DNA of 55,986 bases from Chthoniobacterales bacterium (GTDB lineage: Bacteria; Verrucomicrobiota; Verrucomicrobiia; Chthoniobacterales; UBA10450). Location of the stretch: the NCBI GenBank assembly GCA_013821455.1, contig JACDGS010000026.1, forward strand, positions 1 to 55,986. The letters run 5' to 3'. Position 1 is the first letter of the stretch. Each line of letters opens with the position of its first letter. The notes under the pieces were generated by a model that saw only the letters and a list, made by a program, of their open reading frames with translations, made no database searches and was not told the origin of the DNA. This document shows positions 5,911-9,174 of the stretch, piece after piece. The position numbers were made by a program, and so were the translations under genes.

Positions 5911-5964
5911 GTGTGCACGCGCGGACGCGATTCTGTGTCCCGCCGTTGCCAGCCGGTTTCAATT

Positions 5965-7398
5965 ATGAGCGAAGAAGAAAATGTAAATAACCCGCCGCCA
6001 GTCGAGAGCGCGCCGTTTCGGCGGCGGCGGCCATCGCGTCGCCGTCCGCAGCGATTCCGCCACGACGGTCCAGCCGGTGGAAATGCCTCTGGTGAATACG
6101 GTCCGTCCGAGAAACCGGAGCGCGCTGATGGTCCCGAGATTTTGAAAGAAGATCGGAGCGATGAAGGCGAACGCCGCCGGGAAGATGCGGCCGAGTTTGC
6201 CGAAGTGGCGCATGAGTCCGGTGAAAACCAGCCGCGCGAAGAGCGCCGCGACCGCGCGCACGACGATGGCCGCAACGGCGCGGAGTTGCCGCGCGACCCC
6301 GAATTTGGCGACGGCATTATCGAGATTTCTGGTAAAGGCTTCGGCTTTCTTCGCGACGCGAAACGGAACTTCGTGCAGACGCCTAACGACATCTTCGTCA
6401 CGCCTGAGGTCGTTAGGCGCTTTCAACTGCGGGATGGCATGTGGGTTCATGGCGAAACCCGCCGCGGCAATCGTGGCCCTCAGTTAACGCGGCTCCTCAA
6501 GATCAACGACGACGAGCCGACCAAGTATCAGGACCTGCGCCCTTTCGAAGAGCTGACTACGATCAATCCGAATCGTCGGATCAAACTCGAGACAGTGCCT
6601 GATCGTTACACGACGCGCGTCATGGACTTGATGACACCATTAGGCATGGGCCAGCGCGGGCTCATCGTCGCGCCGCCGCGCACGGGCAAAACCACTTTGC
6701 TTCAGCACATCGCCGACGCGGTGGTGAAAAATAATCCGGAGATGAAACTGATCATCCTGCTCGTGGACGAGCGCCCGGAAGAAGTGACGGATTTTCGCCG
6801 CAACGTCCCGAGTGCGGAGCTGATGGCGAGTTCGAACGACAGCGACATCAAGAGCCACACCCGCATCGCGCAGCTCGCGATCGAGCGTGCGAAACGTCTC
6901 GTCGAGGCGGGCAAGGACGTCTTCATCCTGCTCGACTCGATCACCCGCACCGCGCGCGCGTTTAATAACGCCACCGGTGGCGGAGGACGCACCATGAGCG
7001 GCGGGATCGACGCCCGCGCCATGGAGATTCCGCGGAAGCTTTTCGCGGCCGCGCGCAACACCGAGGAAGCCGGCAGCCTAACGATCGTCGCCACAGCCTT
7101 GATCGAAACCGGCAGCCGCATGGACGAGCTGATTTTTCAGGAGTTCAAAGGTACCGGCAACATGGAGCTCGTCCTCGATCGCAAAATCAGCGATCAGCGC
7201 ACTTATCCGGCGGTAGATATTTTTCTCTCCGGCACGCGGCGCGAGGAACTGCTGCTTTCGCAGTTCGAGCTCGACAAAATCAACTTGATTCGCCGCGGCC
7301 TCGCGGGTCACAAACCGGTCGAAGCGATCGAACGTCTGCTCATGTTCGTGAAGAAATTTCCGACCAATGCGCAGATGCTCAAAGAGATTCCAGGATAA
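5965..7398 (+). CDS. rho: Transcription termination factor Rho
   Basis: 477 residues from ATG 5965 (MSEEENVNNPP), 54 bases after yebC. The first ~115 residues are a low-complexity Arg/Glu/Asp-rich extension (RRRRPSRRRPQRF and acidic runs), as in Rho proteins of high-GC phyla. Then come the RNA-binding cold-shock domain (GFGFLRD) and the RecA-like ATPase with Walker A (APPRTGKTTLL) and Walker B (LIILLVDERPEEV), then SITRTARAFN and the C-terminal MLKEIPG. Intact. A rearranged fragment of the same gene lies 0.9 kb downstream (8160-8458). Two inverted copies of the GCCTAACGA motif are inside the gene (6381 and 6420 outer ends). Confidence 0.97.
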   Translation: MSEEENVNNPPPVESAPFRRRRPSRRRPQRFRHDGPAGGNASGEYGPSEKPERADGPEILKEDRSDEGERRREDAAEFAEVAHESGENQPREERRDRAHDDGRNGAELPRDPEFGDGIIEISGKGFGFLRDAKRNFVQTPNDIFVTPEVVRRFQLRDGMWVHGETRRGNRGPQLTRLLKINDDEPTKYQDLRPFEELTTINPNRRIKLETVPDRYTTRVMDLMTPLGMGQRGLIVAPPRTGKTTLLQHIADAVVKNNPEMKLIILLVDERPEEVTDFRRNVPSAELMASSNDSDIKSHTRIAQLAIERAKRLVEAGKDVFILLDSITRTARAFNNATGGGGRTMSGGIDARAMEIPRKLFAAARNTEEAGSLTIVATALIETGSRMDELIFQEFKGTGNMELVLDRKISDQRTYPAVDIFLSGTRREELLLSQFELDKINLIRRGLAGHKPVEAIERLLMFVKKFPTNAQMLKEIPG

Positions 7399-7432: not shown

Positions 7433-7480
7433 GTCATCCCGAGCGAAGCGCCACGGGGCGGCGCGCAGTCGAGGCATCCA
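7433..7480. repeat. Single-arm copy of the GTCATCC-GAGC repeat
   Basis: GTCATCCCGAGCGAAGCG followed by a CGCAGTCGAGG block matches one arm of the intergenic REP-like family. It begins 35 bases after the rho stop codon. Confidence 0.5.
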
Positions 7481-7523
7481 GTGGAGCAACCGTGAAGCCT
7501 CCACTCGTTAGGCGCTTTTTCCA

Positions 7524-8113
7524 TTGCCTCAACGGACCGGTGCCGAGGGGCGAGTTCCCGAATGCTTCAAGGGTCCTTCGCCCGACTCCGAAAAGCTTGG
7601 AAGAGAAGTCGTGCGCCGCTGCGACCGCGCCGAATTTGATCCCGCTGTTTTCCGGCACATCCGCGTGGATGTCTGGGTCTCCGGCACCGTCACTTACATC
7701 ATCAAGGATGGAAAACCGCACTCGCGGATTTTTCTCAATCAGGAGGAAGAGGACCTGCTTAAAGGCCGCGACTTCGTCGCGCCGCAGTTTGTGATCACGC
7801 CCGGTTTTGCAAAATTCCTCGGCTTCTATGGGCCGCCGAACTCCTCGGGCCATGAGGGACTGGCGGAGGTGAAGCTCGCGGTCGACGCGACCGGGCGAGT
7901 GACGGGCTCGAAAGTCGTTTACGAATTTCCACCCAGGATGGGGTTGGCCCTGAGGTCGCGGGTCGGGTGACCGAAGCCTGTTTCGTTCCGGGATTTCGCG
8001 ACGGCAAACGCACCGCTTGCCAGTTCGACTGGCCGCTTATCTTCGACCGCTTTCCTCAGATGATCACGGGCTGGAGGCCTTCTCTCAGCCGCGCGACCGC
8101 CGGGAGAAGGTGA
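7524..8113 (+). pseudogene. Frameshifted gene with TonB-C-terminal-like domain
   Basis: A coding frame from about 7524 reads FDPAVFRHIRVDVWVSGTVT, then LNQEEEDLLKGRDFVAPQFV and VKLAVDATGRVTGSKVVYEF up to about 7935. From 7937 the sense continues in another frame (DGVGPEVAGRVTEACFVPGF, then RDGKRTACQFDWPLIFDRF) to the TGA at 8111-8113. Together they form a plausible domain of the type 'v..dG.V....v....p.......A...f.PG...G.....' seen in TonB C-terminal-like periplasmic proteins. One base change near 7935 breaks it. No good start codon or signal peptide is visible, so the 5' end may also be lost. Either a pseudogene or an indel error in the sequence. Confidence 0.6.
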
Positions 8114-8159
8114 AGGTTCCGGCTCGTGTGCGGCGCCGACCTCAGCCCGCTCAACGACA

Positions 8160-8458
8160 ACCACGTTGCCGAGAAGGGACGGCAAAGAGGTGAAATGGGA
8201 CCAGAGGTCCCCGCGGCGAAAATTTCGGCAGCGATTTAGCCTAACGACAAGCCGCGGCGCGCCGTGGCCCGGAGATTTTGCAGGATGGATCACTCGGAAG
8301 GGCAACGCCGGCGTGAAGATGCGGGTGAATTTGCCGAGGGCCTTGGTCCGCGTCCGACAACGTTCGGACAGGGTCTCGAGTTTGATCCGCTTGTTCGGAT
8401 TGATCGTGGTCGGTTCTTCGAACGGGCGGCGGTCGTGATCCAAAGAGATCCCGGGTAA
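8160..8458 (+). pseudogene. Rearranged rho fragment with an inverted internal segment
   Basis: Three blocks match the intact rho by eye. Bases 8266-8340 (+) align with rho 6132-6207, sharing GAGATTTTG, CAACGCCG and GAAGATGCGG. Bases 8361-8440, read on the minus strand, align with rho 6529-6606 at about 61 of 77 positions, including ACGATCAATCCGAA and ATCAAACTCGAGAC. Bases 8441-8458 (+, CAAAGAGATCCCGGGTAA) match the rho 3' end encoding KEIPG and its stop. The stretch 8190-8250 also resembles the Arg-rich N-terminal part. The central catalytic domain is missing, so the copy cannot make Rho. Confidence 0.7.
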
Positions 8459-8500
8459 AGGCCAAGCCATACACGTTCGTTAGGCGCACCACGCGCAACG

Positions 8501-8624
8501 TGTCATCCTGAGCCGCCGAAGGACGGCGAAGGACCCCGCAAGCGGCCTTGGACGTCGTTTCAAAATTTCATGATCGCACTTAACTTGTGAGATCCTTCGC
8601 TGTCCGTGCGGCTCAGGATGACAA
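8501..8624. repeat. REP-like long inverted repeat
   Basis: Left arm TGTCATCCTGAGCCGCCGAA with GAAGGACCCC; right arm GATCCTTCGC...GCGGCTCAGGATGACAAC. The arms are complementary over the ends and flank a non-conserved centre. Lies just before the DUF4112 gene. Confidence 0.75.
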
Positions 8625-8634
8625 CTGTCCCGTG

Positions 8635-9174
8635 ATGCCTTCGCCAAAGAAAACTATCGACGCCGAGTGGGAAGTCCTCCCGCCGGAAGAAAAACAAAAG
8701 CGCCAGGAACTCGAGCCGCTCTTCCGCTGGCTCGCGCTCGTCATGGACAATCTCCTGCGCCTCCCCGGCACGAATTTCCGCTTCGGTCTCGACCCGCTCA
8801 TCGGCCTCATTCCCGGCCTCGGCGACACCGGTTCCAGCGTCATCTCGGCGATGGCCCTCATCGCTGCCGCGCGCCGCGGATTGCCGAAAATCCTCCTCGC
8901 GCGGATGTCGCTCAACATTCTCATCAACGAATTCGTCGGCATCATCCCGATCGCGGGCGATGCCTTTTCCTTTTGGTTCAAATCAAACGCGCGCAACTAC
9001 GATCTTTTGCGCAAGCACACCGCGGCGCCGCGCCGCTCGACCACGAGCGATTGGATTTTCGTCGCGCTCGTCCTCATCGCGCTGCTCTGCATCCTCATCG
9101 TTAGTCTGGCCGTGAGTTTCTGGCTGCTCGCGCGCATCGCGCACCTCTTCACCGCTAACGCCTCAACAAAATAG
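8635..9174 (+). CDS. DUF4112 membrane protein
   Basis: 179 residues from ATG 8635. An upstream in-frame GTG at 8587 lies inside the repeat arm, so the ATG is preferred. The DUF4112 signature is clear: LVMDNLLRLPGTNFRFGLDP followed by LIGLIPGLGDTGSSVISAMA, then NEFVGIIPIAGDAFSFWFKS. A strong C-terminal transmembrane segment follows (IFVALVLIALLCILIVSLAV). Function of the family is unknown. Confidence 0.9.
   Translation: MPSPKKTIDAEWEVLPPEEKQKRQELEPLFRWLALVMDNLLRLPGTNFRFGLDPLIGLIPGLGDTGSSVISAMALIAAARRGLPKILLARMSLNILINEFVGIIPIAGDAFSFWFKSNARNYDLLRKHTAAPRRSTTSDWIFVALVLIALLCILIVSLAVSFWLLARIAHLFTANASTK

Follow-up and report, generated by a model that had tools for sequence, protein, structure and literature searches.

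The window, i.e. the entire stretch of 55,986 nucleotides of Chthoniobacterales DNA that was analysed, contains an intact rho gene that is separated from a downstream gene encoding a DUF4112 protein by a spacer of 1.2 kb. The following features were identified at this locus:

5911-7398, plus strand: intact rho (Pfam Rho_RNA_bind, 1e-15; ATP-synt_ab, 6e-26), the type of gene from which the rho pieces below stem
7433-7504, no strand: interspersed repeat CGTCATCCCGAGCGAAGC..., other window copies of which lie at ∼13.1, 16.4 and 23.3 kb
7536-8044, plus strand: decayed gene for a TonB_C-domain protein, with a frameshift near 7943 (tblastn with the homologue of the relative G004, E 2e-30, in two frames)
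8082-8205, plus strand: frameshifted piece of a Ku gene (residues ∼19-59), 73% identical over 114 columns to the genome's own Ku gene on contig C75 and 75% identical to Ku of G004
8207-8339, plus strand: rho piece 1, N-terminal linker region (residues ∼55-98), with indels (repeat search, local alignment)
8341-8441, minus strand: rho piece 2, residues ∼206-240, inverted; 78% identical to the own rho over 91 nt, and 66.7% at the amino acid level over 33 residues
8441-8456, possibly to 8466, plus strand: rho piece 3, the 3' end of rho (KEIPG), identical at 15/15 positions to the rho end of G002
8486-8638, no strand: REP-like interspersed repeat with inverted arms, with many copies in the genome and a similar repeat after rho in some relatives
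8587-9174, plus strand: DUF4112 gene, likely start 8635 (Pfam DUF4112, 8e-29), the usual downstream neighbour of rho as judged from synteny in relatives

The presence of rho-derived sequence in the spacer was recovered independently by a repeat search and by local alignment. In the latter, the N-terminal-region block at 8245-8337 aligned in direct orientation with rho 6108-6203 (74% over 97 columns, E 2e-10 in the window), extending to 8209-8338 when aligned with rho of the congener G003, and the inverted block at 8349-8439 aligned with positions 6617-6527 of the own rho (E 1e-15). The scores of 39 on the plus strand and 51 on the minus strand compare with a top score of 23 when the spacer was dinucleotide-shuffled 300 times. 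The 3'-end block is weakly similar to the own rho, with a score that was reached by 18 of 500 shuffles, whereas the match of AAAGAGATCCCGGGT to the rho end of G002, which belongs to the same genus, was reached by none of 500. The two longer blocks are the only similarities between a gene and a spacer in the 56-kb window apart from interspersed repeats, and a Pfam search revealed no open frame in the spacer that keeps a rho domain. These data bear out the layout given in a preliminary description of the locus, in which N-terminal and 3'-end blocks of rho in direct orientation flank an inverted internal block. The inverted block is longer than the 61 of 77 matching bases reported there (71 of 91). 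The extent of 8160-8458 proposed for the scrambled rho holds for about 8207-8456, or possibly 8466, the first part (8160-8206) being instead a portion of the Ku piece.

The three rho pieces adjoin one another with essentially no intervening sequence, and the Ku piece directly abuts them. The mosaic nature of the spacer, with a TonB_C gene and a Ku piece upstream of the rho pieces, had been missed in the preliminary description. The best matches of the TonB_C remnant in relatives are at 51-52% amino acid identity, the closest being in other genera; its homologues match Pfam TonB_C, one of two scoring above the curated cut-off, and in the relatives listed they sit on contigs other than that listed for rho. 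Two intact Ku genes are present elsewhere in the genome, on contigs C75 and C45, and the intact own Ku gene matches Pfam Ku (1e-43). Over 124 columns the Ku piece is ∼64% identical to the Ku genes of its own genome, G003 and G004, whereas identity among those three genes is 77-82%, a pattern that fits a remnant undergoing drift. The repeats that flank the pieces belong to two interspersed families with GTCATCC[CT]GAGC cores, members of which are found at 7433-7504, 8486-8638 and ∼13.1, 16.4, 23.3, 32.1, 36.2 and 39.4 kb; the second family (8486-8638) has some 40 matches genome-wide.

Next, the locus was compared with its counterparts in related genomes. The gene order yebC-rho-DUF4112-glnE is common to relatives with contigs that span the locus, the exceptions being G012, G016 and G031, members of three other genera in which an extra gene of ∼0.8 kb (L029, L042 and L043), methyltransferase-like in appearance when inspected by eye, lies between rho and DUF4112. 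No DUF4112 gene was found after rho in G026, G032 and G020. In four genomes of the same genus, whose rho genes share 84-89% identity with the own rho, the space after rho is ∼60-245 bp and often holds a GTCATCC-type repeat. Rho pieces downstream of rho were absent from 21 of 21 relatives examined. A second rho-like gene elsewhere in the genome (G000:C5:7445-8599, L040), which shares 51% identity with the first along most of its length, likewise occurs in genomes of the same genus.

Taken together, the 1.2-kb spacer is probably a non-functional scar, composed of pieces of a same-genus rho, a TonB_C gene and a scrap of Ku, for which the likeliest source of the rho pieces is a duplicate of the own rho; a probability of about 0.6 is attached to this reading. 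According to this scheme, the rho pieces would have reached the site beside rho within the organism's own lineage, at about the age of the species splits of the genus, and the TonB_C-domain gene and the Ku scrap would have come to lie there together with them. The duplicate would later have been reduced by deletions and one inversion, the copy presumably having lacked function from its origin or shortly afterwards and having drifted neutrally since. A reduced duplicate would explain the order of N-terminal piece, inverted middle and 3' end, as well as the resemblance in layout downstream of the two rho ends. A GTCATCC-type repeat follows each of these ends (7398 and 8456) within ∼50 bp, an arrangement also seen behind rho in some relatives and in keeping with duplication of the rho end. 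The short space after rho in same-genus relatives, with no rho pieces there in any of the 21, is likewise in favour of duplicate-derived debris. However, simple tandem duplication would not be expected to yield the abutting piece of the unrelated Ku gene, which counts against the duplicate.

The close apposition of the Ku, N-terminal, inverted and 3'-end pieces with essentially no spacer could also be explained by a patchwork insertion, in which stretches of ∼15-130 bp from several places, namely ku and rho (the latter in either orientation), became linked during end joining or template switching at a single break, in the manner of filler DNA, such that a full second rho never existed. The two Ku genes in the genome, and the lack of any other gene-to-spacer copy in the window, speak for such an origin, which is regarded as possible if somewhat unlikely: a decaying duplicate subject to deletions and an inversion leaves abutting pieces too, the TonB remnant of ∼500 bp is far longer than the other pieces, and the junctions are too old for microhomology to be read. 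The narrower proposal that a single templated end-joining event in this Ku-bearing bacterium inserted short ku and rho pieces, in either orientation, at a break next to rho appears distinctly doubtful. Templated insertions at end-joined breaks resemble the spacer in comprising short pieces from elsewhere that abut directly in both orientations, but the pieces described here are old and diverged (22-36%), one of them is ∼500 bp long, their junctions are unreadable, and nothing indicates that they arose in a single event. A comparable process is the short-patch double illegitimate recombination of Acinetobacter. A literature search on rho duplicates, short-patch recombination and gene remnants found nothing of direct relevance.

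The kinship of the pieces was examined in a tree built from the spacer pieces and 16 rho genes, in which the pieces fall within the genus plus G005 (support 99/97). Grouping of the pieces with the own rho was not rejected (p 0.38), the corresponding values for G004 and G003 being 0.38 and 0.16. A more distant donor, G017, which gives the best BLAST hit for the pieces, was rejected in the same test (p 0.003). The preliminary description had offered two origins, an old tandem duplicate of rho or fragments brought in from a related rho; the tree test thus removes the far donor and is compatible with descent from the own rho, the two readings not being cleanly separable. The identity of the pieces to the own rho is no higher than that to rho of other species, and the pieces would be roughly as old as the species splits within the genus, in keeping with the earlier view of an old, scrambled second piece of rho as opposed to a recent copying error.

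Conceivably, the pieces are left over from DNA that was acquired from a congeneric species, natural transformation being one possible route. At 29 sites where the own rho differs from a state shared by G003 and G004, the pieces match the own state at five, that of the relatives at 14 and neither at 10, an excess of G003/G004 states that would favour import; since the pieces share so few of the own states, a donor outside the lineage, or a copy made before the own rho changed, accounts for them no less well than the duplicate of the own rho, against which this count speaks. The proximity of the TonB remnant to homologues from other genera points in the same direction, as does the presence of both a strongly enriched word that resembles uptake signals (described below) and a ComEC-family homologue, although many bacteria have one of the latter. 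Import is nevertheless considered unlikely, given that the tree test does not reject kinship with the own rho, and that codon positions 1 and 2 would be expected to differ less than they do had the rho long been maintained in functional form elsewhere. In this regard, the inverted block differs from the own rho at 6, 7 and 12 sites at codon positions 1, 2 and 3, respectively, compared with 1, 1 and 15 between the own rho and that of G003, both of them functional. In a comparison of an unconstrained copy with a constrained parent, positions 1 and 2 are each expected to show about half the changes of position 3. The observed pattern fits this expectation, albeit at few sites, suggesting that constraint was lost in the copy alone, at around the time when it was made; these small codon counts are as expected if the inverted block has been free of protein constraint since about then.

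A further suggestion in the preliminary description was that the inverted block might act as an antisense RNA to rho, by imperfect pairing with rho mRNA; a functional element of this kind would tune Rho levels. Pairing is indeed predicted, with a computed duplex energy of -129.7 kcal/mol compared with a mean of -48 for shuffled sequences and -192.5 for a perfect match. However, such pairing is expected whenever part of a gene is copied in inverted orientation, and the strength of the duplex here follows from the derivation of the block from rho. The regulatory role proposed fares poorly: a scan of the spacer for sigma-70-like promoters found none, an Rfam scan returned a single chance match (17 bits, the threshold being 50), the element is absent downstream of rho in the 21 relatives, and complementarity to the own rho has not been kept better than that to rho of other species. 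A functional antisense element is therefore highly improbable, and the block is read as debris. The rho pieces align significantly with a functional gene, their frames are disrupted (rho truncated, inverted and with indels, Ku and TonB_C frameshifted), and coding constraint has been lost, as judged from small numbers of sites, features that typify pseudogene remnants; conservation of the element or of its pairing, a hallmark of antisense RNAs, was not observed.

On the basis of these sequence comparisons, the spacer appears to be non-functional gene debris, ordinary in kind, as opposed to a working gene or regulator. Decayed intergenic pseudogene remnants in bacteria similarly comprise partial pieces with frameshifts and relaxed constraint that are confined to one lineage; this example differs in that it joins fragments of several unrelated genes, one of the fragments being inverted and situated beside an intact gene of the parental type. 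The importance of the finding is modest, namely that remnants of several genes, among them a core gene whose intact copy lies alongside, are stitched together in this spacer, and it serves as a warning to annotators that neither genes nor antisense RNAs should be called in this spacer. Were related genomes to contain more patchworks of this kind, these would provide a record of short-DNA capture in these soil bacteria.

Finally, the word TCGTTAGGC is hugely over-represented genome-wide, and mainly within the family, with copies at, for example, 6381, 6411, 7506, 8239 and 8478. The window contains 84 copies of CGTTAGGC compared with 1.4 expected, of which 61 lie in predicted genes, and the genome contains 887 copies of TCGTTAGGCNAA compared with two of the reversed control. 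Enrichment of TCGTTAGGCNAA extends throughout the family, to varying degree, and the word is nearly absent from other families of the order. No paper on the octamer was found in a literature search. The GCCTAAC/GTTAGGC words resemble attC core sites, but an integron attC reading was dropped, the 84 copies being scattered across the window and mostly inside predicted genes. In its density the word resembles uptake-signal or HIP1-type words. Two of the copies, at 6381-6419 within the coding sequence of rho, form an inverted repeat, GCCTAACGAC ... GTCGTTAGGC, the arms of which are ∼30 bp apart.
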